The notes below the pieces were generated by a model. It saw only the letters and a list, made by a program, of their open reading frames with translations. It had not been told where the DNA came from and made no database searches. DNA of 64,000 bases from Tricholoma matsutake (taxonomy: Eukaryota > Basidiomycota > Agaricomycetes > Agaricales > Tricholomataceae). The stretch covers positions 12,780,337 through 12,844,336 of the forward strand of contig AP026538.1 in the NCBI GenBank assembly GCA_026075535.2. Reading direction: 5' to 3'. Below are positions 4,244-38,971 of the stretch, piece by piece. A program made the translations under genes and the position numbers. The stretch's first letter is position 1. Every line of letters begins with the position of its first letter.

Positions 4244-4261
4244 GTTCTTGCCATTGTCATT

Positions 4262-11895: not shown

Positions 11896-14864
11896 TCCAC
11901 AACCCTCGGGAACATGCCATTGGGGCTGAGGGTTGCGTTGACCTTTCCCAACTGGCTGCTTACATCCGTCTCAATGTGTCCGCTCTTTCTGATCCTGAAT
12001 CCCTTACCATCCTGTTATCCCTTTCCAAACAATCCCTAAAAATCCAAACTCTTATCGACTCTGGTTCCTCACATTGTTTCCTTGATTCATCATTTGTGCG
12101 GGACAACCAACTTAGTACCAAAACCATTCCTCCAATCGGACTCTGACTATTTGATGGAACTTGTAACTCCACCATAACTCAAGTTGTGGAACTCCCAGTC
12201 ACTTTTCCATCTGGTGAAGTGTTCAATCTGACATTTTATGTAACCTTGCTGGACTCTTCCTGTTCTGCAGTACTTGGTCATAACTGGCTGAAGCAATACA
12301 ATCTGTTGATTGACTGGTCTTCAGGCCAAATAAATTTCCATTCTGCAGTTCAAAGAGGTCCTGCCCCCTCGATGTCCTCTGACTCTCCTATCTTGTGTGA
12401 GTCACCTTCACCTCTGAACCTTCCAGCGGAAACCCGCGAAAACCCCATAATCACTAAACCCTCGAAACTTGTACCTCCTGAGATCTCTTTCATCAATGCC
12501 ACCGCTTACATGTGTGCAAGCAAACTTCCTGGGGCTGTTGCCTTTCAGATGACATTCTCCCCGGAAGGACTGGCAGCTAAATCCTTGGCAGTGTCCGGAA
12601 ATCCCCTGGACCTTTCTGATGTTCCAGAATAATATCATGAATTTGCAGATGTTTTCAATAAACAAAAAGCCAACACCCTTCCTCCACACCGTCCCTATGA
12701 CCTCAAGATAGAGACAGAGAATAATGCTCCCCCACCTCCAGGTTGCATGTACTCCCTCTCTCCCTCTGAGCTTGAGGCCCTCCAAATATTCATTGAAGAA
12801 AATGTTTGTTCAGGCTTCATCTGCCCCTCCAAATCCCCTCATGGCACTCCTATACTCTTTGTCAAGAAAAAGGATGGGAGTCTCCGACTTTGCATCGACT
12901 ACCGGGGACTCAATTGCATCTCGAAAAAGGACTGCTACCCACTTCCTCTAATCTCGGATCTCCTGGACTCTCCGGGAAAGGCACATGTGTTCACCAAAAT
13001 TGACCTCTGGCATGCTTACCACTTAGTGCGCATTGCTGAGGGAGATGAATGGAAGACCACTTTCTGCACGCACTATGGTTCTTTCAAGTGGCTGGTAGTT
13101 CCTTTCGGACTCACCAATGCACCTGCTGCCTTCCAGCACCTCATGAACGACATCTTCAGTATTAGATGTCAGTGTCATTGTCTATCTCGATGATATCCTA
13201 ATCTACTCCAATGACATGAGTCAACACAAGGCTCATGTCAAGGAAGTCCTCTGGAGACTCCGGAAGAATGGCCTCTAAGCTGCTCCGCAGAAATGCGAGT
13301 TCCATAAAGACAGCATGGAATACTTGGGGTTCATCCTCTCTCCAGATGGGCTCCGGATGTCCAAAGATAAAGTCAAAACCATCCTCGACTGGCCCAAACC
13401 TCAAAAGGTTAAGGATATCCAATCCTTCCTGGGATTCTGCCACTTCTACTGATGGTTCATCCATGGGTATTCCAACATCGTCATTCCGCTCACCAGACTC
13501 ACCCAGAAACATATGCCTTGGGACTTTGGCAAGAAATGTGAAGAAGCCTTCAACAAACTAAAAGAAGAATTTACTCATGCCCCAATACTCACTCAATGGC
13601 TACCGGATTCCCACATTATCTTGGAGACAGACACCTCAGATTATGCCTTAGCAGCAATCCTTTCCATCTATACCTCGGATGGAGAAATCCACCCAGTTGC
13701 ATTCCACTCTCGTTCCTTCAACCCGGCTGAATTAAACTATGACACCCACGATAAGGACCTTCTTGCTATCTTTGAAGCTTTCAAACACTGGCGACAGTAC
13801 CTAGACGGTTCCAGAAATCCAGTAGATGTGGTCACGGATCACAAAAACTTGGAATACTTCAGTACCACAAAGCTCCTTACTTGTTGTCAAGCTCGGTGGT
13901 CAGAATACCTTTCACAGTTCAACCTCGCCATCCGCTTCCACCCTGGTAAACTAGGGGCTAAACCTGATGCGCTCACTAGATGCTGGGACATCTACTGCAA
14001 AGGGGGAAATAGCGACTTCACCTTGGTAAATCTGAGCAACTTCCATCCAGTCTTTACTCAAGAACAACTCACATCCTCCCTCCAAGCCACATTCCTTGCT
14101 ACTCCTATCCTCCATCAAGCCGTCCTCATGGACATTGAAAAACTCCACAATGATATTTGATCTTCACTTCCTCTTGATCCCATCTCCTCCTCACACCTTC
14201 CTTCACCATCCACCTCAGATTGGTCACTAGATGACAGTGGACTTCTCCACCACTTTGACCAGATTTACATTCCAGATGTTGCAGACCTCCGTCTTAAAGT
14301 CTTACAATACAAGCATGACCACATCCTCTCAGGTCACTATGGGCAAAACAAGACTCTTCAGCTTATCTGACGGGAATATGTTTGGCCCAATCTCCACACC
14401 TTTGTGCAGGACTTTTGCAAGTCTTGTACTACCTGCAAACACTCCAAATCTCCCCAACACAAACCCTACAGATTTCTGAAGCAACTTCCGGTCCCGGAAA
14501 GGCCTTGGAACTCAATTTCCATGGACTTCATTGAACGATTACCGGACTCCAATGGTCACACTACCATCCTAGTCATTGTAGACTGACTCTCCAAACAGGG
14601 TATCTTCATCCCCACACAAGACTTTGCACTCCCCCCCGTATTCCTATCGGAGTTCTAGGAGTCCGAGTTTTCCGATAGGAGTCGTACTAGTCCGATACTA
14701 GTCCTAGGAGTCCAATCGGAATGTATCTTGATGACCATGTGCTCTTATTTCCAAGAAATTCCCAGTAAATTCTGAGTAAAGTCCTATGCAATTCCAACAG
14801 GTAGTCAGAATACCACACCATTTCGGAAGACTTAACTTTGGTGAAAGTGCTTACAAAATAAATG

Positions 14865-14951
14865 GGCAGAACAGGGATTGAACCCCAGACCTTGGGATAT
14901 ATAAGCCACATGACCACCAAACAAGTGCTCAACCAGTTGAGCCACAGGAGC
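14865..14951 (-). repeat. H1 left tRNA-like module, copy 1
   Basis: The minus strand has A box TGGCTCAACTGG (14933-14944) and B box GGTTCAATCCC (14874-14884), preceded by GCTCCTG. It faces the left terminus. Confidence 0.7.
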
Positions 14952-15290
14952 ATTACTAAACATGTAATATAAAGTCCATTTATAGCACTTAGGATTACTT
15001 CACTTATTGAGCCCTCACGTCTGTGCGAGGGAGTAGCCCCCGTATTCCTATCGGAGTCCTAGGAGTCCGAGTTTTCCGATAAGAGTCCGATCGGAATCCG
15101 ATAGGAGTCCTACTAGTCCGACACTAGTCCTAGGAGTCCGATTGGAATGTATCTTGATGACCATGTACTTTTATTTCCAAGAAATTCCTAGTAAATTCCA
15201 AGTAAAGTCCTATGCAATTCCAACAGGTAGTAGTCGGAATACCACACCATTTCGGAAGACTTAACTTGATGAAAGTGCTTACAAAATAAA

Positions 15291-15376
15291 TGGGCAGAGC
15301 AGGCATTGAACTCTAGACCTTGGGATATAAGTGACATGACTACCAAACAAGTGCTCAACCAGTTGAGCCACAGGAG
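15291..15376 (-). repeat. H1 left tRNA-like module, duplicated copy 2
   Basis: Second copy from the internal duplication. The A box TGGCTCAACTGG is kept, while the B box has drifted to GTTCAATGCC. Confidence 0.6.
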
Positions 15377-15784
15377 CATTAATAAATATGTAATATAAAG
15401 TTGATTTAAAGCACTTAGGATTAGTTCACTTATTTTTAACCTCTCTCACAAGAGCTCGAAAAAAAATTGTTGAGCCCTCGCATCTTCGTGAGGGAGTAGA
15501 TAACTAATATAGATTTAAAAAAAAAACCCCACGCAAATGCAAGGGGGAGAATTAATTATACTATTTAATTATACTATTTTAAATTCTACAAAAAAAACCC
15601 ACCCCCCCACGAAATGGGGGGGAGGGGGTGGTGGTGCATCGTGTTGGCTGTCTCGTCAGCCCTGTCCCGTCATTTCCCCTCCCTCTTGTCTCTGTCATGT
15701 CTTGCCGCCCTCACCTCGCCTCCCCCGTGGCTTCCCTCCCCTCCCTCATCTCCCCTCCCTCGTCATTCCACCCACCGTCCACCC

Positions 15785-16132
15785 CATGAGCAGTTGCTCA
15801 TGAGGCTGGTGGTGCGTGGTGCGTCGTATGTTGGTGGCAGTGTTTGTCCATTGTCTCCCCTTCTGGTCGTCATTTCCCTTTCCCCTTGTTGTTTTGTCAC
15901 CCTTGTCATTCATCCCCCTTGTCATCTGCACCCACAAACCACCCTACGGGCAGCTGCTCGTAGGCATGTCATTTGGTGCCGTCGTCGTCCCTCGACGCCG
16001 TTCCCATGTTCTCACACCCCATATACACCCTGCAAGCAGTCGCTCACGGTGGTGATGGGGGGTGCTGGATGTCATTGGTGTCGTGGGGGGTCCATGCACT
16101 CATGATCCACCCTACGAGCAGCAGCTCGTAGG
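15785..16132 (-). repeat. H1 GAGCA stem-loop array
   Basis: Stem-loops at 15785-15802 (CATGAGCAGTTGCTCATG), 15943-15964 and 16111-16132 (arms CCTACGAGC / GCTCGTAGG), plus a weak one at 16030-16047. Each sits beside CACCC/GGGTG. The outer pairs differ between stems but remain complementary. Confidence 0.7.
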
Positions 16133-16366
16133 CATGGGGTGGGTGCATTGTCAGTTTGTCAGTGATGTGGCTCGAGGGGAGGGGTCAGGTGGTGCTTACT
16201 GGGTGGGTATTCCCCTTCTGGGGTCTCCTGGTGTTGCTCCCCGTGCTCCTGACCATGATCGATACCCTCACATCCCGTTTTGATGGGGAGGAGGGGGGTT
16301 GCCAGGGGCATCGTTGGGTGTGGGTTTGGCTTGCGTCAGTCCATCGTTACTCATGTAGATTAGAAC

Positions 16367-16465
16367 CTAGAAACAAAACAAATGAATTTGTTAGTTTACA
16401 AAAGTAAAAAATGAATGAAAAAAAAAAACTTACTACAGCCCAAATGACGATTGCATCGTCTGGGC
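16367..16465 (-). other. H1 intron and adjoining GCCCAA stem-loop
   Basis: The minus-strand intron 16433-16367 (67 nt) has donor GTAAGT, branch-like AACTAAC and acceptor TTTCTAG. Immediately upstream in transcript sense is a stem-loop (16438-16465; arms GCCCAAATGACG / CGTCTGGGC). Confidence 0.65.
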
Positions 16466-16716
16466 ATCATTCGGCGTCGAAACCAATCGTTTCCGGTCTT
16501 GGGGGCTCATCTAGAGATGGGGGTGAAGTGGGAGTGGTGGGAGTTGCTGGGTTGAGGTGGTTGAGGTGGGGGGGATGGAGGTGGTGTGCTTGTCGTCGTC
16601 GGTGGTGGTGGTGGGAGTTGATGAGCTGGCAGGTGTGATGACGTGGCTATGTGCTTTGTCATCACACCCATGGGAATGGTATGTAGTGTAGTATGATCAC
16701 TTACCTGTAATGACTG

Positions 16717-16784
16717 TTTAGCCTAATGGTATTGTTGTCGGTTTACACTTACATAATCTTCTGTAGTCAAGTGTTCAATTCTCA
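16717..16784 (+). repeat. H1 right tRNA-like module
   Basis: A box TAGCCTAATGGT (16719-16730) and B-box-like TGTTCAATTCT (16772-16782) on the plus strand, facing the right terminus. Confidence 0.6.
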
Positions 16785-18175
16785 TGTGTGCATTTAATTT
16801 TTCATACTATATTACTAAGCAAGGCTGCTTTCATTCGTATCGGAATCCTATGTTGTCTGATGTCTTAGCATAACTTTGGACTAGTCCTATGTGATTTCTA
16901 TGATCGGAAACTCCTAGGAAATTCCAATAGTCCGATTGGAATCTGATCGGACTACATCGGACTGGACTAGGACTAAATGTGCCATTTCATGTCAATTTGG
17001 CTGATGAAAATGACATCAGAATATGGTTGGATTCCAATCGGAGTCCGATCAGAATCATCGGAATCATTGGATTCCTATAGGAATATGGGGGGGAGTGTAA
17101 AGACCTCTCCCCACAGTAAATGAAATCACAGCACAAGAACTTGCTAATCTCTTCATCATGCATATCTTCTCCAAACATGGTGTTCCATCCCACGTCACCT
17201 GCGACCGGGGTTCTGAGTTCATTTCCCATTTCTTCCGCTCTCTCGGGCAAGCCCTGGACATGAAAATCCATTTCACTGTGGGTTACCATCCAGAAGGTGA
17301 CAGACAAATTGAATGCCTCAAACAGACCCTTGAACAGTACTTGCAGACCTTCTGCAACTACCAACAGGACAACTGGTCCCAGCCTTTACCCTTAGGGGAA
17401 TTTGTGTACAACAATGCTCCCTCAGCTTCCACTGGAGTTTCACCCTTCTTTGCCAACAAGGGTTACCACCCAAACATCATGGTTTTTCCGGAGCGTGAAC
17501 TAGCCTTGCAATGCACATGCCATTTTGTGGTTGACCCTGATGATCTCCACCAGGAACTCCGGAAGCAACTCTCAGAAGCACAGAAGCGCTATCAAGGTCC
17601 TGCAGACAAACATTGGGCACCTGCTCCTGACTTCAAAATCGGTGAATACACTTTCGTCAAAGGCGAGCACCTACACACTACAAGACCCTCCAAGAAGCTC
17701 TCAGAAAAGTTCTATGGCCCTTTTGAGATCATTGCCCGTCCGGGTACTCACTCGGTTACCCTTTGACTTCCGGATCACCTCCGGGGTGTCCACCTGGTAT
17801 TCCATCTCTCCCAACAAGAAGAAGACACTCCAACACAATTCCTAATCGTATTCAACCTCCACCTCCTCTGGTCATTATAGACAATGAACTGGAGTACGAG
17901 ATTGTGGAAATCCTCGATTCAAAGATTGACAACCACTGTCGATGCAAGTTACTCTATTTCGTACGGTGGGAAGGTTACCAAGGAACTGACAAAGAAACCT
18001 CCTGGCTTCCAGCTACAGAACTTGATCACGCCCAGGAACTTGTTATAGACTTCCACACTCGTTACCCAGGGAAACCCGGACCTCTTTCCACTTAACGCCC
18101 TTCATTTTCAAACAAGATCCTCAAAAATTATTATTAGAAAATTTAAAAGAAAACTCCGGATTCCCCGCCCATTTC

Positions 18176-18990
18176 CTACTCCTCCCCTACTCCCTCACCC
18201 CCTGCTTCATCAGTGAGTCCCAGCAGCTCCCCTTGTACCTCCAACTCCTCTTCACCCTCTTCTTCTTCATCCTCTTCCTCCTCAGACTCCTGGTTCCACT
18301 CCAGATCCAATGCCACTAGGATGTCCCCCATAGTTTCTTGGATGCCGATCACACCTTCACTTATCACCCAGAGCTCCCGGAGTTCCCGCATTTCTTTCTT
18401 CACCCCCTTTACCGCCCCCACCAACTCCTTAAGCAACTCCATCACTCCCTCATTCTTCCCTAGCCTGGGTCCTGCCTGCAACACCTGGCCCTCCCACACC
18501 ACCTCGTCACACTTGTGCTTCACTTTTGTGCAGGGCTTGCAGGCCTGACCCCGGGTTCCCATCTGGAAACACGACAACTTTTGATTTGAACATGTACTAG
18601 GAGTCAGCATACAAGGGCAACAAGAATAAAAAGCAACTCACCTTTTGCATGAAATAGCGGCTTGTAGCCGCAAGGGGACTTCATTCTTGGGCACCTCCAC
18701 CCTCGCCTTTCCTTTCGCCTTCTTCTTGGGGGGGAGCTCCCTTCAGCCTCTTCAGGCTCCACTTCTCCGGCTTTCCTCTTCTTTTCTGCCCTCTTAGTGG
18801 CAGCGGTCTTCTTCCGTTCCTCCTCTGTAGCCTTTTTCTTGGCCTCCAACCTAGCCACCTCCACTTTTGCAGCCTCCTCAGCAACCCTGTGCTCCTCAGC
18901 CTCCTTCGCTTTTTCCTTGAGCTGGAGCTCCTCCATCAACTTTTCTTGCTGGGCCCTGAGGGCTGCAATCTTCTCCGCATGCGAGGACAT
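18176..18990 (-). pseudogene. G1 antisense gene, coiled coil plus Zn2Cys6-like cluster
   Basis: It lies antisense between G1 pol and the missing 3' LTR. It starts MSSHAEKIAALRAQQEKLM (18990), then a long Ala/Glu/Lys coiled coil and a basic tract (PPRRRRK). A frameshift occurs before LRLQAAISCK. An intron 18641-18597 (45 nt; GTGAGT, CTGAC, CCTAG) separates the first Cys pair region from CSNQKLSCFQMG and ACKPCTKVKHKCDEVVWEGQ. The C-terminal part is acidic (EEEEDEEEEGEEE), ending near 18176. The same architecture and intron occur in G2, so this is a conserved accessory gene and not a shadow. Its job is unknown; DNA binding is inferred from the cluster. Confidence 0.6.
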
Positions 18991-19277
18991 GTTAGAGGTG
19001 GTGGCCTAGTAAATTCCGAGCAGAATAACAAGACTTTGCACTCCCCCCCGTATTCCTATTGGAGTCCTAGGAGTCCGATCGGAATCCAATAGGAGTCCTA
19101 CTAGTCCAATACTAGTCCTAGGAGTCTGATAGGAATCCGATTGGAATGTATCTTGATGACCATGTACTCTTATTTCCAAGAAATTCCTAGTAAATTCCGA
19201 GTAAAGTCCTATGCAATTCCAACAGGTAGTCGGAATACCACACCATTTTGGAAGACTTAAGTGCTTACAAAATAAAT

Positions 19278-19365
19278 GGGCAGAGCAGGGATTGAACCCC
19301 AGACCTTGGGATATATAAGCCACATGACCACCAAACAAGTGCTCAACCAGTTGAGCCACAGGAGC
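19278..19365 (-). repeat. H2 left tRNA-like module
   Basis: The minus strand has A box TGGCTCAACTGG and B box GGTTCAATCCC, as in H1 copy 1. It faces the left terminus. Confidence 0.7.
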
Positions 19366-19735
19366 ATTAATAAACATGTAATATAAAGTCCATTTATAGC
19401 ACTTAGGATTACTTCACTTATTGAGCCCTCACGTCTTCACTAGGGAGTAGATAACTAATATAGATTTAAAAAAAACCCCCCACACAAATGCAGGGGCAAG
19501 AATTAATTATACTATTTAATTATACTATTTTAAATTCTACAAAAAAAAACCACCCCCCCGCAAAACAGGGGGGAGGGGGTGGTGGTGCATCATGTTGGCT
19601 GTCTCATCAGCCCTGTCTCATCATTTCCCCTCCCTCTCGTCTCCATTGTGTCTTGCCTCCCTCACCTTGCCTCCCCTGTGGCTTCCCTCCCCTCCCTCGT
19701 CTCCCCTCCCTCGTCGTTCCACCCACCATCCACCC

Positions 19736-20158
19736 CATGAGCAGTTGCTCACGAGGCTGGGGGTGGGTGGTGCGTCGTATGTTGGTGACAGTGTTTGTCC
19801 ATCGTCCCCTCCCTCCCCCTCCCCTTAAACACCCTATGAGCAGATGCTCATAGGTGTGCGTGGGGCGGGTGTCGCCATCGTCTCCCCTTCTGGTCATTGT
19901 TTCCCTTTCCCCTTGTCATTTTGTCACCCTTGTTGTTCATCCCCCTCGTCATCTGCACCACGAACCACCCTATGGGCAGCTGCTTGTAGGTGTGTCGTTT
20001 GGTGCCGTTGTCGTCCCTCCACGCCATTCCTGTGTTCTTGCACCCCATATACACCCCACAAGCAGTCACTCATGGTGGTGATGGGGGGTGCTGGATGTCA
20101 TTGGTGTCATGGGGGGTCCATGCACTCATGATCCACCCTATGAGCAGCAGCTTGTAGG
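19736..20158 (-). repeat. H2 GAGCA stem-loop array
   Basis: Stem-loops at 19736-19753, 19833-19854 (arms CCTATGAGCA / TGCTCATAGG, perfect), 19969-19990 and 20137-20158 (CCTATGAGC / GCTTGTAGG), plus a weak one near 20056-20072. The arms vary in concert compared with H1. Confidence 0.7.
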
Positions 20159-20392
20159 CATGGGGTGGGTGCGTTGTCAGTTCATCAGTGATGTGGCACA
20201 AAGGGAAGGGTCAGGTGATGCTTACCAGGTGGGTATTCCCCTTCTGGGGTCTCCTGGTGTTGCTCCCCGTGCTCCTGACCATGATCGATACCCTCACATC
20301 CCATTTTGACAAGGAGGAGGGGGGTTGCCAGGGGCGTCGTTGGGTGTGGGTTTGGCTCGCATCAGTCCGTCATTACTCATGTAGATTAGAAC

Positions 20393-20490
20393 CTAGAAAC
20401 AAAATAAATGAATTAGTTAGTTTACAAAAGTAAAAAACAATTGAAAAAAAAAACTTACTACAGCCCAAACAACGATTGCGTTGTTTGGGT
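20393..20490 (-). other. H2 intron and adjoining GCCCAA stem-loop
   Basis: The minus-strand intron 20458-20393 (66 nt) has GTAAGT, ACTAACTAA and TTCTAG. Upstream in transcript sense is the stem-loop 20463-20490, arms GCCCAAACAACG / CGTTGTTTGGGT. Confidence 0.65.
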
Positions 20491-20735
20491 GTCATTCGGC
20501 ATCGAAACCAGTCGTTTCTGGTCTTGGGGGCTCATCTAGAGATGGGGGTGAAGTGGGAGTGGGAGTTGCTTGGTTGAGGTGGTTGAGGTGGGGGGGATGG
20601 AGGTGGAGTGCTTGTCGTCATTGGTGGTGGTGGGAGTTGATGAGCTGGCAGGTGTGATGACACGGCTATGTGCTTTGTCATCACACCCATGGGAATGGTA
20701 TGTAGTGTAGTATGATCACTTACCTGTAATGACTG

Positions 20736-20812
20736 TTTAGCCTAATGGTATTGTTGTTGGTTTATTGGTTTATGCTTACATAATCTTCTGTAGTCAAGTG
20801 TTCAATTCTCGT
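20736..20812 (+). repeat. H2 right tRNA-like module
   Basis: A box TAGCCTAATGGT (20738-20749) and B-box-like TGTTCAATTCT (near 20799-20810), facing the right terminus. Confidence 0.6.
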
Positions 20813-21164
20813 GTGTGCATTTAATTTTTCATACTATATTACTAAGCAAAACTGCTTTCATTCGTATCGGAATCCTATGTTGTCTGATGTCTTAGCATAA
20901 CTTTGGACTAGTCCTATGTGATTTCTATGATCGGAAATTCCTAGGAAATTCTGATAGTCCGATTGGAATCTGATCGGACTACATCGGACTGGACCAGGAC
21001 TAAATGTGCCATTTCATGTCAATTTGGCCAGTGAAAATGACATCGGAATCATCGGATTCCTATAGGAATACAGGGGGGAGTGTAAAGACCTCCAGAATAA
21101 AGAACTTAATAAATAATTGTTTTTTTGACAAGTCAATATGTATAAAATGTATTGTCCAAAGCAA

Positions 21165-21235
21165 GGCTTGAACCCACAACCTCATGACACATAATCACAA
21201 CTTGCAACACAACTACTAACTATGCCACATAGGCT
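21165..21235 (-). repeat. Hp tRNA-like module
   Basis: The minus strand has A box TGGCATAGTTAG (21216-21227) and B box GGTTCAAGCC (near 21174-21184). The spacing is tRNA-like. It could alternatively be a degraded tRNA gene, but a complete cloverleaf is not apparent. Confidence 0.6.
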
Positions 21236-21783
21236 TAATTGGAGCCTATTAATATGTTTACTTATTATCTATTTACAAATTGTGATGTAAAAAAATAAAT
21301 CAGCACCGCTCATTTCAAGTGACGGTGTCCAAATAAGAGAAAACAAACCCCCCATTACAGAGGGGGACTACTAAGGCTGCCGCCTCGTTGGGGAGCAAGG
21401 CAGTGGGTTGTGCATACATTTTGCCCTCCCCTCCCACCACTCCTCATTCCTGTCCCTGCCTCGTTGCATTCCCGCTTCATTGTCATGCCTCCCTCATGGT
21501 TGCATGTCTGCCTCATTGCTGTCCCTGCCTCATTGTTGTCCCTGCCAGTTTTGTCATCTGGTCTTGCTGCCCTCGTCTTCTGGCTGTCCCTCGTCTTTTG
21601 GCTCTCCTCCTTGTCTGGTCCCCCCTTGTCGTCTGGCCCTCCTTGTTTGTAGCACCCATGGTCCACCCTGTGAGCAGTTGCTCACAGCGGTGTGGGCAGG
21701 GGCTGGGCACTGGGTGCCTTGCATTGTCCCCGCTGTGTCCTCATCCTCTCCCCTGGATTGTTGTTGTCATCAGTAGTTAGTAT

Positions 21784-21877
21784 CTAAAAAAAAGTTTGTT
21801 AATAACATAAAAAAAATGAAATGAAAAAGAAAATAATTTACCTACAGCCCAAGAGGTGTCGACGACGCCTCTTGGGC
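21784..21877 (-). other. Hp intron and adjoining GCCCAA stem-loop
   Basis: The minus-strand intron 21841-21784 (58 nt) has GTAAAT donor, TATTAAC branch-like site and TTTTTAG acceptor. The stem-loop 21847-21877 has arms GCCCAAGAGGTGTCG / ACGCCTCTTGGGC. Confidence 0.6.
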
Positions 21878-22156
21878 CTTTTTTCATTTCCTCGTTGTTC
21901 CCCTCACTCCCCCATCTCAATGGGGTTGTTGTTCCCCTGTCTGTTCTTCTTGTCATCGTCCTGGTTGTTCCCTGTCCTTGTTCTCTCATGCCCATCGTTG
22001 TTGTCCCCTCGTCTTTCCCATCATCCCTATCCTGTTGTTGTTGTCCATTAGCACCCACTTTCCCTCATGCGAGCAGTTGCTCGCACGATAGGGGTGGGTG
22101 CTGGGGTCATTGTCCTTGTTTGTTGTCTTGGCTGTTCTTCCCTCCTGGTCCTAGCC

Positions 22157-22739
22157 GCTGATGATGCTCAACCCAGAAACTCAACCAAAACCAACTAAAC
22201 TGGTCTTAGGAGATATAACGTGAGTCAGAGGAAGGTTGCGAGGTGGTACCAAATATCACCATGCTAACCAAAGGCCATAGATGTACTATGAAGCTCTATG
22301 AAGCAATGCAAAGTCCTGCGAAGCCATACAAAGTAGTATGAAACACTACGAAGTGTTTCAAAATGATACAAAAGAATTTAGCTGTGGTGCCAAAGAATTT
22401 GAAAAGCCTTGGAATGGTTTTGAGGAGCTCAGGAGATGGTGACAATAGGTGAAGACGATGTAGAAGATGACAACAAAGTAGATGGACAATTGGTGATAGT
22501 TTTGAGAGACTAAGTAGCAAAACGACAAAGTTTGTGGAATACTTTTGGACTAAAACTGAGCTAAGACTCGAGAGTAGAACCCTTAAGTCACACGATATGC
22601 AATATAGGAAGACGATTTCTTGTGTGCCAAGACAGTAAATACACCAAACTATATATGTTTTAGAGAGATAGTACTAAAAAGGTAAAAGGCCATGAGGCAA
22701 ACATGTGGTAGACATAAGGCAGTGAAAAAGGTGTCAAAA
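22157..22739 (-). repeat. X-family repeat, partial
   Basis: It begins TGATGATGCTCAACCC and shares AGTCAGAGGAAGG and later words with the reverse complement of insertion X (42145-51063). It stops where the C3 5' LTR begins, so C3 probably inserted into it. Confidence 0.5.
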
Positions 22740-22955
22740 TGTTGGGATAGTCAATCCTAGCGCAATACATTAGCACATCACAAGCACAACACTAGCACAT
22801 CATGTATAAAAATAGAACACAATGTATTTATAGATCACAACATATGTACATCGTAGTATAGGAGAATATGAGACATTCTACCTTGTCCTGAACTCCCATC
22901 ATTTTATCCCTTCGAACTTCTCCTTCACACCATAATCCCAATAGGTTATGGGCCC
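22740..22955 (+). repeat. C3 5' LTR and primer-binding site
   Basis: The LTR starts TGTTGGGATAG and ends near 22943. It is followed by GGTTATGGGCCC (22944-22955), complementary to the initiator-tRNA anticodon arm. The LTR-end CA is degenerate (AATA). Confidence 0.65.
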
Positions 22956-23000
22956 TGGCCTTTTTCATTTTAAATAACTCATTCTAGACTTGGACATACT

Positions 23001-27492: not shown

Positions 27493-27917
27493 TGTAGGGC
27501 TCAATTTCTTGCAAGAAGAGTCGTGAATTGAACCACCTTCTTATACAACACTCCAAGGCTGTAAACAAATCCAGTAGTCAGAGTAATTATATTCAAAACA
27601 GGTATGTAGGAATCAACAATAATACAGAATCTGAAGATAAATCATGACAAGGATGGGACAAGAAACCTCGAGGCTCCGAAGATCACAGACTGGCAGTCAA
27701 TGATGTCACAATGAATAATCACTATGTCAGGGAAGGATAATGGCCAACACTCAAAGAAAAGATGGGTATTGTCATAAGACTCATAACCAAAGCTCAAGTA
27801 TAATCATCTGATGAAGGTTACTGACTGTTGCTGTTCAGCGAGCGATAGCTTACTCACTCCTGAGCATAAAATCAGAATTACACATCTCGAAGAAGAGAGC
27901 TATTACTAACCTCACTG
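27493..27917. other. Spacer between hAT fragment and FunK1 gene
   Basis: About 425 bp with no gene or repeat that I recognise. It would contain the 5' flank of the hAT gene and the 3' flank of the kinase. Confidence 0.4.
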
Positions 27918-30710: not shown

Positions 30711-31485
30711 GATGTGAGTCAACTTCAAGTCCTGACTCAAGTCGAGTTGTGACCAAATCAACCAGCTGTTTCCATCAGAAAGTGGCGCATGACTTGCACC
30801 AGCATGTGACCAACTTTGGCTTTCAAGTCAACTTTTAGCTGAGTCACGGCAACACTAATCCTCTCCAAGTTGTTGAAGGCCATTGACTCTATTGTTCCCA
30901 CCTGAACATTGAATGTGGTCACCATTGTCTTCCTTCTATGCCCTAATCACCTCCCACCGCAATGCATGGCTCCCATCCAGACCAACACCATGAGGCATTC
31001 TGGTGTCAACATATGGTCTGTTCTCAGGAGGTTAACTGCAACCTCCTGATTGATCTTGGTGGCACATTCTGGAGTGTGAGGACTGAATGAATCCTGTATT
31101 GCTTGTGTTTCAGCAGAATAGTATTTTTTACTGAGGTATGAGGTAGAAGGATGAGCCACAATAAGTATGAAGTTCTTTGCAGTCAAGGCCACTCACATCA
31201 TTTCATCACTTACAATCCCAAAGGCACAGGCTTTGTCAAGATAATCAAGGCCTTCTTCCTTTCCAAGAAGCAAGACAGCACCAAGTGCAACATAAAAGAT
31301 TTTGAAGTGACTATAGGAATTGACACTGATACATCACTGACAATGGATGAAGGATGCACTCGTCAAAGTCAGTCAGCTCTCTCCTGCAAAACTCTTCTAT
31401 CCTTCATAAGTTTTCATCACAGACTTGCTCTGTTCATGGTAGAGGATAATCTGTTGAAGCATTGATGGGCAAGGCCAAGAGTTGT
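30711..31485. other. Spacer with unassigned ORFs
   Basis: Minus-strand open reading 31192-30947 (KNFILIVAHPSTSYLSKKYY) and continuation toward 30780 (FNNLERISVAVTQLK) could be exons of an unrecognised gene. No domain recognised. Confidence 0.25.
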
Positions 31486-31953
31486 CTATGGACTTCTTCT
31501 GCATGGTGTGGGTTGGCCTGGATAATGAGTTGGTGGCAAGCCATGACATTGCAATGATACATAAGGATTTGTGCCAGCAGATAAAACATATGAACAAATA
31601 GAGTGGTATTGGCTATGGATCATAGAATGTCCCTCCCTGCAGGTAAGCTGGGAAGACACCATCTCTGTAGGTGCTTTAAACATGTACTCTAAGAGCCTGA
31701 CCACAGATGTATATCTGCCCCAGTGTAGGCCAGCCAATTGTAAATCATCTAAAGCCATTCTAAATGTGTCTCTAACAGATTCTAATGAAGTTTGATTATA
31801 AGAGTGATCATTAAATCCATTACAGATCTCTTCTAGCAAGTTACAGTTCATGCTACAAAAGGATTGTTTCCAGTGTGTTGGATTATTCCTCCAAAGTGAG
31901 TATAATATATCAGTAAGTTGACAAAAATATTTCCAGAGGTTTCTCAACCTCAA
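31486..31953 (-). CDS. Unrecognised protein fragment
   Basis: Open frame with a soluble, helix-rich composition (SLESVRDTFRMALDDLQLAGLHWGRY, abbreviated here to its ends: SLESVRDTF and LHWGRY). The part after KAPTEM is probably intronic or another frame. It lies between the kinase and C2. No family recognised; it could be an exon of a decayed repeat protein. Confidence 0.25.
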   Translation of the reverse strand: MRLRNLWKYFCQLTDILYSLWRNNPTHWKQSFCSMNCNLLEEICNGFNDHSYNQTSLESVRDTFRMALDDLQLAGLHWGRYTSVVRLLEYMFKAPTEMVSSQLTCREGHSMIHSQYHSICSYVLSAGTNPYVSLQCHGLPPTHYPGQPTPCRRSP

Positions 31954-32185
31954 AAACCTTGAAAAACATCAGAAAACCTTGGAAACTTGAATACCTGGAA
32001 ACTTAAGTCACTTTTTCTGGAAACCTCACTAGCAAGCATTATCTGGAAACCTCTGAAACTCTATGAAACCTCTAGAAACAAAGTGCACCCAAGAAAAAAT
32101 GCTTATTATAGTAAGTTTCTGAGTTTCCAAGTTTCCAAGTATTCAAAAACCTGGAAATGTGTGAAAACCAACTGAAATCTGAAAA
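31935..32185. repeat. Hairpin-forming repeat rich in GGAAACTT
   Basis: The left arm (AAACCTTGGAAACTTGAATAC) and right arm (GTTTCCAAGTATTCAAAAACC) are imperfect inverted repeats, with GGAAACCTC repeated between. It may be a MITE, but no target duplication is clear. Confidence 0.4.
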
Positions 32186-32379
32186 CTAAAATGTCATCTT
32201 CCTGATGTATAGTAAATACAGAACCATATGCACAGCTGTTATTACTCCATATTAAACCAGTGGGAGGTGAAATCTGAAATGTTGCACTACCATATGCCAT
32301 GTGAGCTGTATTGTGACTGAAGTTGAAAAGGATGAAAATTATGATCCATTTGAATTAGATGACTGATGTTCAGTTAACA

Positions 32380-32600
32380 ATATTATTTACAATTAGCAAT
32401 AGGCCCCAGTACCATTTACAATGATTAACAATGGGCCCCAGCACTATTTACAATGATTAACAATATATTACAATGGGTGCCAGTACCATTTACAATGATT
32501 AACAATGCCTGCCAGTACCATTAACAATATATTACAATTGGTTGTGGTACCATCTACAATCATTAACAATCATTAACAATATTATATACTACATCTATTA
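32380..32600. repeat. Minisatellite, unit about 30-45 bp
   Basis: Four to five imperfect copies of a unit containing CAGTACCATTTACAATGATTAACAATG with GGGCC or TATTA variants. Confidence 0.65.
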
Positions 32601-32646
32601 GATATCTACTACAATGTCATTGTAATAAAACACCGGTACTGTGCAC

Positions 32647-32951
32647 TGTTGAGAATGACACCATGAGCACATGCAAATGCTGTATTGCCAAATACAGATC
32701 TTGGCACATTAATTGATGTGTGTCCTATATTTAGTGCATCCCTTTGATGCGCATGTTTGTATCTGTGTCACGGATACCTTTATACCATTCTTCTTTATCT
32801 AACCTGACTCGTATATATACAGTAGACGGATACCAGATCACCTCAGTCACTTATACAGAGACTGAGGTGAGTAACGACTTATTATTTAGTAGTGATCGAT
32901 TACTTACTGTACTTATAGTTCACTCTTGTTGTACTAGGTTGATTTTCTACA
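32647..32951 (+). repeat. C2 5' LTR
   Basis: 305 bp, TG...CA. It differs from the 3' LTR mostly at sites where one copy has TG and the other CA. Confidence 0.9.
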
Positions 32952-32962
32952 GGTTATGGGCC
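32952..32962 (+). promoter_or_regulatory. C2 primer-binding site
   Basis: GGTTATGGGCC, complementary to the initiator-tRNA anticodon arm (GGCCCATAACC), directly abutting the LTR. Confidence 0.8.
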
Positions 32963-33169
32963 ACTCCCATCGCATTTAGACGATGGTAGAAAATCTCCTA
33001 GCCACTCAGTGTTTACCTACGCCATTTTTGATTGGACCCCTAGATCACTTAGATCTTGGATCACAACTTAATGGGATCAGACTACCCGACCCATCTCCCT
33101 CCCCTTTGTCTTCTTTGACATCACCCTACTGGATGCTCACCTGCCATTACCACTGCTGCTTTCTACACT

Positions 33170-34353
33170 ATGGTTGTGGAAACAAACCCACCTTCTATTT
33201 CTCTCATCAAGTTGTCAGTTCAGTACTCAGGGGGAAAGTTGGACAAACTTAAGTCTAATTACAAAGAATGGTGTGAGGAAATCACAATCGCCCTCTCGCT
33301 GAATGGACTCTATGAATATGTGACCGGTGATATTACCCCACCTACATCTACAGAAACCTGTGCTCTTGTGAACTGGGTGGCTAACTCGCGTCTCATGTAC
33401 ACCTTTCTTGCTTCCAGTGTTTCCCCATCCGAGCACCTATTCCTTGATATCAAGAAGGGCCCTGATGTAAATTGGAAAACTCTCCAAGATCATCATCAGA
33501 AGGAAGGCCCAGTCTGCCAGGTCCAATTGCTCCAGCAAGCACTTTCCATCCAGTGCTCAAAGGATGTGCCACTCCCCAAAACAGCGGAAAGGATTTGCAC
33601 TCTCATTGAATGCGCTTTTGCCATGGGGGACATAAAAGCCGACCTACTCTGTTGTATTGCCCTCCTTAATTCCCTTAGCAACAACTTCCCACATGCATGA
33701 TCCATTATATCCTGCGACATCGCTGCCTCGACTGCCAGTTCCCCATATGGGTCAAAGGACATCCACATGTTCCTGGAGAATGAACAGTCTCTCCTTGAGA
33801 ATGACCAGCGTCATGATTCTCGCTCCACCATTGCACTTACTGCTTGGACCAAACTAAACAAAGCGCCTAATGCGCCCACTTGTGGGAATCCTGTCTGTAA
33901 AAAACTGGGCATACTACAGAGTACTGCATCAAGCCTGGAGGCAGTATGGCTGGGAAGACCATTGATGAATCCAAAGCCACACGGAAGCTGGTGTTTGAGA
34001 AGAAAGCACCAGGTACTGCTAGTTCCAGGATCCCAATTATGGTAAAGGATGTCAATAGACATGCCTTCACGGTCATGGTCAATTCTGAATTCCCTGCACC
34101 CATCGCCTCCCGCCTGGAATTTGCTGGCCTTGCATGTGATCCCCTTCCCACTGCTTCCATAGAAGAGGTTGAATACAAGGGATGGATTGTTGTTGAGGAG
34201 GAGGCGTCTACGACTCTCAACTGGAACCAACATACATCCATGCATAATGATGGCGCATTCACCGTCAAACCACTTACTCAGACCCGTCGATCTCACCTTT
34301 CACTGGATGAGCATCCTTTTATTGTCGACTCTGGTGCAACTGTACATATTTCA
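33170..34353 (+). pseudogene. C2 gag and protease start, frameshifted
   Basis: Copia Gag starts MVVETNPPSISLIKLSVQYS. It has a UBN2-type core to 33700, a TGA after NNFPHA, a knuckle-like CGNPVCKK with a frameshift in an A run, then (in the next frame) PGGSMAGKTIDESKA, and the protease segment FIVDSGATVHI (DSG 34326-34334), where H3 is inserted. Confidence 0.8.
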
Positions 34354-34464
34354 GAGGTCTTTACACTCCCCCCCCCAATCCGAGCAGACTCCACTCAGAC
34401 ACTCGGACAGTCCTAGGACTGTCCGAGTTGCTTATATAATTGAATGAACAATCAGTGGCTACTG

Positions 34465-34532
34465 CAGGGATTGAACCCTCATAGTCACATGATAAAGTAC
34501 AATTAAGTCAGCAATATAACAGTTAGACTAAA
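34465..34532 (-). repeat. H3 left tRNA-like module
   Basis: The minus strand has A-box-like TAGTCTAACTG (34520-34530) and B box GGTTCAATCCC (within 34467-34478), facing the left terminus. Confidence 0.6.
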
Positions 34533-34673
34533 GCTTCATTACAGATAGGTAGTTATATCTCTCTATGTACCGCCCCGGCTGTGATGACAAATCAACACAG
34601 CCACGTCATCAACAACGCTGGCAATGGTGCCGCCTCCTCCTTACCTCCTACCCAAATAACCAACAATGGGAAT

Positions 34674-34773
34674 GAGCCCAAACAACGGCATTGTTGTTTG
34701 GGCTCACTTGTAAATCTTTTTTTACATGATTTCTGTTGTTTTGTTTAACTAACTGAATTTTCCTTAATGATAG
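34674..34773 (+). other. H3 unit 1: GCCCAA stem-loop and intron
   Basis: Perfect stem-loop 34674-34706 (arms GAGCCCAAACAAC / GTTGTTTGGGCTC), then an intron 34711-34773 (63 nt; GTAAAT, TTAACTAAC, GATAG). Confidence 0.65.
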
Positions 34774-35044
34774 ATTTTATCTATGTTATAACGATGCCAC
34801 AGCCTCAAATCCACAACAACGGCTGACACAGCCACCACCCTAGGACCCAGAACCACCGCCACAAGCAACTGCTTGCAGGGTGGGAATGGGTACAACTGCA
34901 AAATGGCAAGACAATGGCGATGCCAACTTGGCCAAACGGAACGACAACACAACAAGGCGACTTGAGACAACTGGGACTGGGAGATGGAATGACGAGGGGA
35001 TGAGCGGGAAACAACAAAAGGAAGGCAAAACACATGAAGAAAAG

Positions 35045-35125
35045 GCCCAAGAGACGTCGTTTGACGTCTCTTGGGCTGTTGGTAAGTTTTTTTTTCTTGT
35101 TTTTGTTACTAACAAACTTTTTTAG
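35045..35125 (+). other. H3 unit 2: GCCCAA stem-loop and intron
   Basis: Perfect stem-loop 35045-35076 (arms GCCCAAGAGACGTC / GACGTCTCTTGGGC), then an intron 35082-35125 (44 nt) with GTAAGT, exact TACTAAC (35107-35113) and TTTTAG. Confidence 0.7.
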
Positions 35126-35410
35126 GTATTATCTAGTACTGCTGATGACAATGACGACGACGAGCACTCAGAACCACTGCCGCGAGCAGCTGCTCACAGG
35201 GTGGGAATGGGTGCAACTTCAACAAGAATGGCTACTCACGCCCACCATGCAGGACACACCACCCACCTCCAGCCTCACGAGCAACTGCTCGTGGGGTGGA
35301 TGGTGGGTGGAATGATGACGATGGCATGGAACGATGACAGCACTCACTCCAGCCCTACAAGCCACTGCTTGTAGGGTGGACGATGGGTGGAACGATGATG
35401 ATTAGGGAAG

Positions 35411-35499
35411 ACCCAAGAGATGTCAACGTCTCTTGGGTCCTAGGTAAGTTTTTTTTTCTTTCCTCATTTCATTTTTCGATCCTAACTAACTTTTTATAG
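35411..35499 (+). other. H3 unit 3: ACCCAA stem-loop and intron
   Basis: Stem-loop 35411-35438 (arms ACCCAAGAGA / TCTCTTGGGT), then an intron 35444-35499 (56 nt; GTAAGT, CTAACTAAC, TATAG). The first pair is A-T here and G-C in the other units. Confidence 0.65.
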
Positions 35500-36012
35500 T
35501 TACAAACTACTACTGGCAATGATGACATTGATGACACCACCACCACCACTGCTGCGAGCCCCTGCTCGCAGCGTGGAAGGTGAGGGGGAAGAGACGAGGG
35601 GGAAGGAGATGAGAGGGAAGGGAGATGAGAGGGAAGGGAGATGACGATGAGAGTGGGGACACCCACGACAACACCCGCCCCATGCCTACGAGCATCTGCT
35701 TGTGGGGTGGTTTGGGGGGGAGAAGAATGGGGACAGGAGAGCGAGACAGCCAGGGGACAACCTGGGGAGAGACAAATGCCACCATGAGCAACTGCTCATG
35801 GTGGGTGTTTTTAATTTATTTTTATAATTGATAGTTACAGCCCCCTCCCCTCGAGCTTGTGAGGGGAGGGCTTAGTATTATACATATTAATTACGCATAT
35901 TAATTACCCCTCGCACAGATGCGAGGGGGTCAATTTAATAATCTATTCATGATATATAACAGATTAGATTTCAGTAATAAATAGATATAATGTATGTAAC
36001 TTTAAATGACTA

Positions 36013-36090
36013 CTTGGCTTAAGTGGTAGCGTGTGCATGTTTCGTTGTCATGTGATTGCTAGTCCAGAAGGCTGTTGGTTTAATTCCTGC
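36013..36090 (+). repeat. H3 right tRNA-like module
   Basis: A box TGGCTTAAGTGG (36015-36026) and B box GGTTTAATTCC (36077-36087) on the plus strand, facing the right terminus. Confidence 0.65.
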
Positions 36091-36304
36091 TGTGCACACA
36101 TCATTTTGTGAGACTTATAAGACTTTCTCTAAGACTGGAACTCCGACTTTACTTGGTCAGTACTTTAAAAGGTGTAAATAAGAGGGTGGTCAGCAACCCG
36201 AAACTGATAATTTTTCCCATGTCAAAACTTGGCAGAAGTTGAAATATTGTCACTCTACTTAAATAGGCAATTACTGATAGTCACACATTCTTCATCTTAT
36301 TATC

Positions 36305-37631
36305 ATGGATCATACTCAGAGACAACGGCTACTCATTCAAATTCTAGGCATATTTGTGAATACAATCATTGTTGCTCTGATCCTATTTGCAGCTCCATTG
36401 TATGATAAAGAAGCATACCATACATCAGCACTTTCTGGGGCTGCATGGGTCCTTGAGCTTCTGGAAGGTCACCCAGGGCATATCCATTGTGAACTAGGTG
36501 TATCCAAAGGAGTGTTTCGGTTCTTGGTTGCCTACCTACAACAGATGGGAATATCACACTCTAGGGGTATTCTTCTGGAGGAGCAGCTGGCCATTTTTTT
36601 GTATAGATCTGTCACGGGTATATCAGTGCGCCATGCTGGTGAAAGATTTCAACGTTCAAATGATACAATATCAAAGTAAGTTATCCTTGTCTAGATTCAC
36701 ATCTATACCTACTGGGCATCAGATATTTTTCAAAGATGCTTTATATCTTCTCATCTGAACCCTTCTACACTGACTTTGTCTGCCAGCCACAGAGCACAGA
36801 TCCCCCTTCTCCCTACATTGTTGACAACCCCAAGTTTTATCCTTACTTTGAGAATGCCATTGGTTGTCTGGATGGAAGTCACTATATTAGCTCTGGTACA
36901 GCAGAGGAGTGAGCCTTGGCACGTGATTGCAAAGGGCTTACCACTACAAACTGTCTTGCTGGATGTGATTTTGATCACAACTTCACATATCTCTCCACTG
37001 GTTGGGAGGGATCAGTTAGCGATTCAACAATGTTCTTTGATTCCCGTATAACCGATTTAAGGCTCCAGTCGGGTAAATTCTATCTTGCCAATGCAGGATT
37101 CCCAGTTGCCGATGCACTTCTTATACCATATCGAGGTGTGCAGTATCATCTGGCAGAATGGGGCCGTGCAGATCTTCGGTGTGTTGCCTTTCATTATAAA
37201 TATTGCCATGATGCTTATTCATTATTAGCCCAACCAATGCACAGGAGCTCTTTAATCTTCGCCATGCATCAGCTCGAAATATAATTGAAAGGATGTTTGG
37301 TATCCTAAAGAACCGGTTTAAAATCCTGCAACACAATCCTCATCTCACACCCACAGTACAAGCACATCTTCCTGCTGCACTTGCAGCGATACACAATGTA
37401 ATCTGGAAATATGACCCTGGTGAAATTGAGGATCGTATCAAGGAGTTAGAGGCTGAAGAGTTTTTGTTTGATGAATCAGATCTGCAAGGTGAGGAAGGCA
37501 CAGAGGGAGAGCTGGCAGAGGGACCACCAAAGCGAGCTGAGAAGCAAGATGCTGACAAGAGGAGGGATGACATTGCAGAACATATGTGGATCCAATATCA
37601 ACAGGTCCTTGAGGCAAGGGGAGAAAACTAG
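36305..37631 (+). pseudogene. HARBI1-like transposase (DDE_Tnp_4), one stop
   Basis: It starts MDHTQRQRLLIQILGIF. The helix-turn-helix region has GVSKGVFRFLVAYLQQMG. An intron lies at about 36676-36721 (GTAAGT...CATCAG), then YFSKMLYIFSSEPFYTDFV. The catalytic core has AIGCLDGSHY (first Asp), GWEGSVSDSTMFFD (second Asp) and, after a second intron (GTGTGT...GCACAG, about 37181-37248), ARNIIERMFGILKNRF (Glu). A TGA interrupts the frame after GTAEE near 36911. It ends 37631 with an acidic tail. Length and all three acidic residues fit the family; one reversible lesion is visible. It would cut and rejoin at TWA targets together with the Myb-like partner. Confidence 0.8.
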
Positions 37632-37792
37632 CATGTACTGGATGATATTGTCGAGTCATGGTGTCACAGGTGTTGAAATTTGAAAGGTACATGGCATTGT
37701 ACTATACATGTACAGTACATCATGCAAGGAATATGGAGAAATACAACATAATGGCTACAGTCAATTGAAACAAGATTAGCAAGACATTCCTT

Positions 37793-38672
37793 CTAAATCA
37801 AAGGAAACCCTAGGTCTTTCATCTGCCTCTGAACCCATGCCTTCCTCAGACCATCGCGCTTCATGCCATCAGAGGCATGCCCCCCATTAGATCCGTCGCT
37901 AGGGATACCATCTCCATGTCTCTCGAGGGGGTCGTCAATGCCAAGAGCATTATCATCAGGTGGATCTTGAGGGAGTGCGCTGAGTGTCGTGTTTGTGGCG
38001 CCATGAGTTCCTTGTCCAGGTCGATAGATGCTACAGCCCTTCACAAAGCTGGGCATGAGCAGGGACATAAGATCATAGAGCACGAAACCCTTGTGTGCGA
38101 ATACAGCACTCACAGGATGTTTCTATCAATTTTTATCAGATTCTGGATAGTAATTAATTATGAAACACACCGTTATGTACTCCTTCCACACTGACTGCTC
38201 TGCAACACCAATATTCATCCCCAACTCCATGGTATACTTGCATCCTATCCCAGAAAGGCCTTTCAGAGTGGTAACTATATTGTATTGAGTACGGAGCTGC
38301 CAAATGGTTAGTGAGTGGCGATCGGCAGAGATTAGTACATACATGGCCATATTTTGAGGAACATGCAGTTGAATTCTTGGCAAGACCCTTAACAGGAGGG
38401 ATCTTCGCCATCTCCTGGACGGCAGCAGTCCATGTAACTGGCTTGAAAGATCCACCGTCGCCAGCCTCAGACTTCTTAGACACAAGAAATGAGATTAAGC
38501 GCTCTTCTTCTGCAGGCATCCAGTGACACTTTTCTGCAGGTTTCCTGGCAGGGTCAGTTGTGGGATTAACTACTTTACGACCACGATTAGTACATGGCAG
38601 TGGTGGGGCTTCATTGCTGGGGCTTCGCAAGGTGCTACGAGTTTGCATGGTGAGGATTGTGGTGTCACACAT
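37793..38672 (-). CDS. Myb/SANT-like DNA-binding protein of Harbinger
   Basis: Start near 38672 (MCDTTILTMQTRSTLRS; the second Met is also possible). The domain CHWMPAEEERLISFLVSKKS, then EAGDGGSFKPVTWTAAVQEM and SKYGHVCTNL, is the Myb/SANT-like motif of the second ORF of fungal Harbinger elements, which binds subterminal DNA and brings transposase to the nucleus. Downstream of an intron the C-terminus (38113-37793; LPQDPPDDNALGIDD, WVQRQMKDLGFPL) completes it. Exon borders between 38300 and 38110 are not settled. It converges with the transposase gene. Confidence 0.7.
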
Positions 38673-38971
38673 GTGTCACAAAATGACCAATCCAGCTGCT
38701 CGGCAATGCAGCCAGAATACATGGGAAAAACTCTCAGTTTTGGGTTGCCGACCACCCTCTAAATGCACAATTGATGTTGTCCGAGCAAAGTCCGAGTGCA
38801 GTCTGAGTGCAGTCCTTGGACTTTACTCAGACAACTCGGACAGTCCTAGGACAGTCCGAGTGTCCGAGCAGAGTCCGAGCAGAGTCTGAGTGAAGTCCTT
38901 GGACAGTCCGAGTGTCCGAGTGTGTCCAAGCAGAGTCCACTCGGACTGGGGGGGGGGAGTGTAAAGTACTG

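Follow-up and report, generated by a model that had tools for sequence, protein, structure and literature searches.

A shared internal programme of hairpins and intron-like segments in transposase-less inverted-repeat elements and a hAT family of Tricholoma matsutake

A 64-kb stretch of contig 1 of the Tricholoma matsutake genome (C1:12780337-12844336, here called the window) holds three elements, H1, H2 and H3, which are, as judged from their ends and flanks, non-autonomous DNA transposons with terminal inverted repeats (TIRs) and mostly 8-bp target-site duplications (TSDs). Between two outward-facing tRNA-type units near the ends, each carries on one strand one to three copies of a hairpin followed directly by an intron-like segment, several GAGCA hairpins in an array, and C/G-rich stems, an architecture referred to below as the programme. 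It is found in four H subfamilies (A to D) and in a hAT family that has different ends and a transposase, and it is therefore a module common to several lineages and not an invention of H, the family to which an earlier note on this DNA had assigned it. The reading that we favour, tentatively and at a little under an even chance, is that the programme would be a spliced non-coding unit that is kept for the help it gives in cis to the element bearing it.

The repeat table of the telomere-to-telomere assembly of T. matsutake (PMC10211490) gives 40.9 Mb of unclassified repeats and 2,342 'small RNA' repeats that make up 1.94 Mb. The genome searched here comprises 161,040,721 bases in 13 contigs. 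Subfamily A was sampled from the best 40 of 3,290 first-look candidates scored, from which 30 loci were retrieved, and subfamily B from the best 40 of 3,006 candidates scored, with four copies read besides H3.

Ends, target-site duplications and copy number

The window contains six exact CTTTRCACTCCCCC sites, which form inward-facing pairs at H1, H2 and H3. The number remains six when up to two mismatches are allowed, against a shuffle mean of 1.01, and none of 100 shuffles reaches it. Genome-wide, the search for this terminus that had been proposed earlier gave 3,904 sites (1,949 + 1,955) for a 14-bp pattern with at most one mismatch, against 238 (119 + 119) for the reversed pattern taken as control; if each element keeps both ends, the family would number roughly 1,800.

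Matching termini and 8-bp duplications had been claimed for all three elements. The termini indeed match in all three and H1 and H2 are flanked by 8-bp duplications, while the repeat at the ends of H3 is of 9 bp (Table 1). At the 30 subfamily A loci (L009-L038), 27 have a word common to both flanks. It is exactly 8 bp long at eight of these (three being H1 and its duplicates) and 8 bp plus one neighbouring base at ten, so that 18 of the 30 loci fall into these two classes; the others have 9 bp (L037), 11-12 bp (two loci) or only 6-7 bp (six loci). No word shared by the flanks was found at L029, L030 and L033. Two further H1 copies with the identical duplication, L010 and L011, lie in segmental duplications and are therefore not separate jumps: the stretches with H1 and its neighbour H4 recur inverted at C1:12.508-12.516 Mb and C1:19.067-19.074 Mb, with 98-99% and 97-98% identity. 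H1 owes its extra length to the ~400 bp at its left, which are imperfectly duplicated within the element. It sits inside a frame that resembles a gypsy integrase (by eye) and that resumes beyond H1 when the flanks are translated separately.

The internal programme

The order of modules that had been described holds in H1 and H2 on the minus strand and in H3 on the plus strand (Table 1). The window has three pairs of exact A and B boxes spaced much as in a tRNA, all of them in H1-H3, against a null mean of 0.025 and a maximum of 1 in 200 shuffles. With mismatches allowed, boxes stand near both ends in 29 of 29 subfamily A copies; for one such interval, 25 of 290 shuffles have them. When each box is allowed one mismatch, the sense-side unit is present in 12 of 12 and the antisense-side unit in 11 of 12 (not in L004) of the elements with that end in view, a result that is weak taken alone. 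A looser A/B-box expression is not significant by itself (13 observed against a null of 8.4), ARAGORN found no full tRNA, and the three Rfam matches, with E-values up to 1, all fall under the gathering scores of their families and were taken as chance. The C/G-rich stems of the H elements were recognised by eye and partly by folding.

A GCCCAA...TTGGGC hairpin ends 4-6 nt before a GTAAGT donor, and a T-rich segment, CTAAC and YAG follow. An expression for this intron-like segment, which is of fungal type, is matched in both A elements examined (2/2), three times each in all five B elements and in six of seven distinct C elements; the seventh, L070, has two such segments. In subfamily D the donor is GTAAAT. 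An intron-like segment is thus present in each element, as had been claimed; the number is not always one, being one in A, three in B and one or two in C. Lengths range from 44 to 67 nt, and the donor, branch-like site and acceptor are kept despite the change in length. In the subfamily A consensus the intron is 61% T, against 10-15% in the flanking parts. The pattern TTGGGYN{4,6}GTAAGTTTTT, which joins the 3' arm of the hairpin to the donor, has 2,274 matches in the genome and none in the control.

The GAGCA hairpins, of ~60 nt, number 39 in 13 elements, and the corresponding pattern AGCANCTGCTYRYRGGGTGG has 6,401 matches in the genome against none in the control. Most of those folded conserve a small apical loop and a single-base bulge. 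In an alignment of 22 rows, 15 of 22 pairs are changed on both sides, and the covariation score is 0.304, compared with 0.148 (standard deviation 0.015) for shuffled alignments and 0.117 for the best slide; for the donor hairpin (11 rows) the values are 0.404, 0.231 (standard deviation 0.028) and 0.143. In both hairpin types, therefore, paired changes exceed those of the shuffled and slid controls, in agreement with the paired stems first proposed. The alignments are made of related copies and paralogous hairpins, with the structure taken from one member, so that these controls leave relatedness as a possible part of the signal. A covariance model of the GAGCA hairpin (R1, one of whose 23 rows is antisense), scanned over the window and 49 of 75 loci with both strands counted, gave 171 matches; it also matches many GAGCA hairpins on the reverse strand, at lower scores. 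Tandem GAGCA hairpins spaced 70, 90 or 93 bp apart were also seen far from exact H termini, for example at C1:2706310-2706745, and these arrays possibly belong to another carrier family.

Subfamily C comprises L001, L003, L004, L005/L006 (one element), L007, L008 and L070, and subfamily D comprises H4 and L075, both partly in view; in L075 a variant terminus, ACTTTACTGTCCCCC, was recognised by eye. Between A, B and C, the interiors can be aligned only piecewise, at about 60-75%. The earlier note had named copies without the modules as the observation that would speak against it. On contig 1, the eight exact termini that come first in the list, taken without regard to content, all align to A or C, and GAGCA hairpins are present at seven of the eight sites (1.5 kb in view). 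Among the matches listed on contig 1, an exact H terminus stands no more than 2.2 kb away from 49 of the 96 intron modules and from 28 of the 98 hairpins, which places about half or more of the modules in decayed or other elements. The intron module lies 507-1187 bp from the exact terminus on the sense side, and the introns all precede the hairpins in 17 of the 20 clusters that hold both.

Table 1. Positions, within the window, of the H elements, their modules and associated insertions
Feature	Position	Strand	Remarks
H1	14617-17107	programme minus strand	subfamily A, 2.49 kb; TSD TCCCCACA at 14609-14616 and 17108-17115
H1 left tRNA-type A/B box unit	14874-14944	-	exact boxes, outward
H1 array	15764-16150	-	four GAGCA hairpins: 15764-15823, 15924-15983, 16010-16069, 16092-16150; model R1
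H1 intron-like segment	16367-16433	-	GTAAGT...CTAAC...CTAG; GCCCAA-type hairpin just 5', about 16437-16464
H1 right tRNA-type unit	16718-16783	+	imperfect B box, outward; by eye
H2	19029-21092	programme minus strand	subfamily A, 2.06 kb; TSD CAGAATAA at 19021-19028 and 21093-21100
H2 left tRNA-type unit	19288-19358	-	exact boxes, outward
H2 array	19715-20176	-	five GAGCA hairpins; model R1
H2 intron-like segment	20393-20458	-	GCCCAA-type hairpin just 5'
H2 right tRNA-type unit	20736-20810	+	imperfect B box, outward; by eye
H4	21093-22158	-	truncated subfamily D relative; tRNA-type unit, C/G-rich stem, GAGCA hairpins, hairpin and intron
H3	34353-38971	programme plus strand	subfamily B, ~2.0 kb without the nested Harbinger; 9-bp end repeat CATATTTCA
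H3 left tRNA-type unit	34467-34530	-	exact boxes, outward
H3 intron-like segment 1	34710-34773	+	donor GTAAAT; hairpin just 5'
H3 array	34839-35821	+	seven GAGCA hairpins, interleaved with introns 2 and 3; model R1
H3 intron-like segment 2	35082-35125	+	hairpin just 5'
H3 intron-like segment 3	35444-35499	+	hairpin just 5'
H3 right tRNA-type unit	36015-36087	+	one mismatch per box allowed, outward
Nested PIF/Harbinger in H3	36182-38759		TSD TAA at 36179-36181 and 38760-38762; frame broken

A hAT family with the same programme

Matches to R1 occur in eight of 30 loci with a hAT domain. Five of them (L044, L045, L046, L054 and L066) are one hAT family, with the hAT dimerisation domain PF05699; L061 holds an A element that has inserted into a member of the family, and L059 and L068 hold further module sets. 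In L068 (138-620) GAGCA hairpins were seen by eye together with a differing hairpin (CTGGGGCAT/ATGCCCCAG) beside a decayed intron-like segment. The transposase exon of the hAT family is 92-96% identical between L045 and four copies, with the fewest changes at codon position 2, and the programme lies downstream of the transposase and antisense to it. L044 has the full order, namely a donor hairpin (GGCCAAACAACG...TGTTGTTTGGCC), a T-rich intron-like segment and four GAGCA hairpins. In L044, L045 and L066 the alignment that covers the transposase extends past it and over the array, so that the array belongs to that hAT family.

The ends of this family set it apart from H. Among 44 matches to its right side, eight end at query position 590-592 and seven at 551-553, and the end read inward from 590 is TAGTGTTGCCACAGCTC (TAGTG...), which has 699 genome matches with at most two mismatches against 10 for the control. 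hAT termini carry a YARNG-type motif; TAGTGTTGCCACAGCTC fits it and, on its sequence, is a hAT-type start unlike the H end. The right end lies in L077 (1-889), and the matches listed include eight opposed TAGTGTTGCCACAGCTC pairs 147-705 bp apart, three of them 329 bp, which suggests that they are short miniature inverted-repeat transposable elements (MITEs) of that hAT family. Beside the hAT copy in L066 and L077 joined, a reverse-strand open reading frame (about 4139-4510) resembles what we take to be a Plavaka-type transposase.

The proposal that the H elements themselves are hAT-like finds support only in the length of the duplication, which at 8 bp fits; the termini differ, since the H ends (GAGGT, CAAGA or GTAAA, each joined to CTTTRCACTCCCCC) contrast with the TAGTG, TAGGG and TAAGG of the three hAT loci of 30 with readable ends, and do not show the YARNG-type motif. 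The hAT-domain loci were considered as a source of the H transposase, and none of the 30 PF05699 loci has a correctly oriented H terminus (~1.5 kb in view, at most two mismatches); two lookalikes with three mismatches were seen, at L046 and L066. Inward TIR pairs among the matches listed are ~8.2 kb apart in three cases, 4.5-4.9 kb in three more, 10.0 kb in one and 3.8 kb in another. The two that were read as possible autonomous H elements were set aside: L069 (8.2 kb) has gypsy-like frames by eye and ends that share no duplication, and L070 (3.8 kb) is an A element together with a C element. KDZ genes were also considered, as Zisupton makes 8-bp duplications like those of H (PMC12730594). They are numerous in T. 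matsutake, with at least 165 matches (best 150 of 831 candidates scored), and none of the 11 listed C1 matches is bracketed by exact H termini within 10 kb, in the range of the listed termini.

Selection, coding capacity and alternative explanations

Several observations weigh against a spliced unit kept under selection, and they are gathered here. Broken signals are found in some copies: the donor is ATAAGT in both segments of L070, and the hairpin is lost in L001 and at the third of three introns in L073. Within the hAT family, two of the three aligned copies, L045 and L066, are without most of the donor hairpin, the donors are GTATGT in L045 and GTACAT in L044 and L066, which makes splicing in the latter two uncertain, and no tRNA-type boxes were found in four hAT pieces. 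For the donor hairpin, one of the five covariation measures fails to exceed its controls: 99 of 500 shuffles have as many pair types as observed, or more. No H transposase was found in the 30 hAT loci, the listed KDZ matches and the two TIR intervals read. The mode of decay points the same way. In subfamily A, 1,613 of the 3,509 consensus CpG cells remain CpG, while 979 read TG and 843 CA, as expected of methylation-type decay, and unpaired positions change at 5.96% (C>T) and 5.72% (G>A). Changes in the A stems to G-U and to A-C are near-equal, at 334:287, and single copies therefore look neutral; 89 stem cells are changed on both sides, with relatedness left in. Across paralogous and subfamily hairpins the ratio is 31:25 and 11:5, together 42:30 (p 0.19), which is not significant. 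The earlier statement that the structures are under selection is thus not borne out by these tests. The paired changes are clear, and the strand test leaves RNA and DNA palindromes unseparated. To these points is added a frame of ~70 codons in the last part of B that is open in all five copies, discussed below.

Alternatively, the programme could be ancestral filler amplified by rare master copies, its palindromes being kept by template switching at the DNA level or by gene conversion and nothing being selected. Neutral CpG-type decay within A, the want of significant strand asymmetry, and the broken donors and lost hairpins all agree with such passive descent, as do the several arrays whose hairpins are 70, 90 and 93 bp apart, a spacing that suggests simple local duplication. 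We regard it as unlikely, though the most serious of the alternatives, for it does not readily account for the retention of donor, branch-like site and acceptor while the intron varies in length, for that of the boxes, the donor hairpin and the GAGCA hairpins across subfamilies that align only in pieces, or for the presence of the programme in a second family with different termini.

Two further explanations were weighed. The hairpins could be small-RNA precursors or silencing decoys, in which case the spliced hairpin-array RNA would act in trans to oppose silencing by the host. In its favour, there are four to seven hairpins of ~60 nt in each of H1, H2 and H3, most of those folded with the conserved loop and bulge; a function in trans would however be of little gain to non-autonomous copies, and the pairing changes have no significant strand bias, and we consider it improbable. 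Less probable still is a function at the level of DNA, in which the palindromes would be protein-binding or cruciform sites for transposition or replication. Palindromes pair on either strand, and R1 does match the reverse strand, if at lower scores; yet the modules stand away from the termini, as the position of the intron module illustrates, with splice-like signals next to them and in an order that is mostly fixed.

It had also been said that the modules might prove to be exons of a captured protein gene. None was found, and the part of this possibility that survives is the ~70-codon frame of subfamily B, which could be coding. The intron-like segments and T-poor flanks do resemble gene structure, and the frame, which in H3 runs from 35600 to 35821 across the last two GAGCA hairpins, has 8 variable columns at first, 10 at second and 22 at third codon positions (p 0.006 against equal thirds). 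The variable columns are mostly of CpG type, and the phase of CpG sites alone predicts 19:27:40 (p 0.34), near the excess observed at the third position, although the eight non-CpG columns split 1, 1 and 6. With the introns removed, no frame runs through the five B copies, the frames further upstream are not conserved among them and the internal gaps include 1, 2, 5, 17, 29 and 37 bases, and a stretch as poor in T as these flanks (10-15% in A) is fairly often open by chance. That the modules are at least partly exons of a protein gene, whether captured or inherited, and with it a short coding part in subfamily B, is the least credible of the explanations weighed here.

Nested and neighbouring elements

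H3 is interrupted by a nested element of the PIF/Harbinger group, as indicated by its DDE_Tnp_4 domain (PF13359, E 1.6e-12), a 3-bp duplication of the TWA type and its own TIR of ~42 bp. Without this insertion H3 itself is ~2.0 kb long, similar to H2. The DDE_Tnp_4 gene is split over frames, and the element has more open reading frames on the reverse strand. The statement that none of the three elements encodes a transposase holds for the H copies read, which have none of their own; the nested gene in H3 had been overlooked. As the enzyme of H the nested transposase was rejected on account of its own TIR, its TAA duplication, its copies outside H and the H copies that are without it. Nine further copies, 96-98% identical over about query 180-1864, lie outside H3 and its duplicate, and in several H copies elsewhere the query flanks 1-182 and 2761-2972 adjoin with a 3-bp overlap, as in an empty site.

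H4, which had been missed, received H2 in its subterminal part. It is cut at 22158 by a repeat starting with TGATGATGCTCAACC, and the same start is seen at the point of interruption of a hAT copy in L076.

Discussion

There is nothing unusual in non-autonomous TIR transposons, hAT elements or nested insertions as such, and several known systems resemble H in part. With hAT elements H has the 8-bp duplications in common, and one T. matsutake hAT family carries the same hairpin-intron-hairpin programme; no H copy read has a hAT gene inside. Plant microRNA loci derived from MITEs are likewise non-autonomous DNA elements with hairpins (e.g. PMC8862332), whereas the hairpins of H are internal and multiple, keep a mostly fixed order relative to the introns and the tRNA-type units, and are not formed by the terminal repeats. 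tRNA-derived short interspersed nuclear elements (SINEs) share the A and B boxes, but their ends are without TIRs and of retroposition type, while H has TIRs, 8-bp duplications, two outward units and a length of ~2 kb. The same comparison extends, on its description, to the megB1 element of Tricholoma, which is dimeric and Alu-like (PMC10627285). No description of such a module programme shared by families with different ends was found in searches of an open-access library, Repbase being left out.

Returning to a spliced non-coding unit with a benefit in cis, the following scheme could be envisaged. The H elements would be mobilised in trans by a separate transposase, and the two tRNA-type units would act as outward promoters near the ends, while the programme between them would be transcribed and spliced. 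Its help in cis would most simply be to keep the element transcribed and accessible in a silenced genome with heavy CpG loss among its copies: the tRNA-type units could serve as chromatin boundaries, and strong introns would be cleanly spliced. The hairpins may also yield stable or processed RNA, and the place of the programme behind the hAT transposase, in antisense, would leave room for transposase control. It is because elements that lack a transposase keep the programme through deep divergence that we infer a benefit in cis. In Cryptococcus, introns and stalled spliceosomes on transposons reportedly feed RNA interference, which makes the quality of splice signals a plausible target. A bolder form of the proposal, which we think rather unlikely, would see in the programme, with its tRNA-type units, hairpin-guarded introns and hairpin arrays, a mobile gene for a spliced, structured non-coding RNA that has spread among transposon families whose ends differ, with and without transposase, and that works for these transposons, for instance through countering silencing by the host or controlling the transposase in antisense. 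As for the origin of the sharing, an ancestor could have changed its ends, the module could have moved between families, or an H-like insertion downstream of the hAT transposase could have lost its ends.

Of a non-autonomous element one would expect that it needs nothing but its ends. Contrary to this expectation, the very large H family, with its several subfamilies, and a transposase-bearing hAT family keep the same internal architecture. Should the programme be functional, it would represent a class of RNA gene borne by transposons and a way to ask what elements without genes need in cis; should it not be, palindromes would have been kept without function, which would itself be striking. 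Either way, a hairpin placed right before a splice donor poses a question of RNA processing that is open to test.

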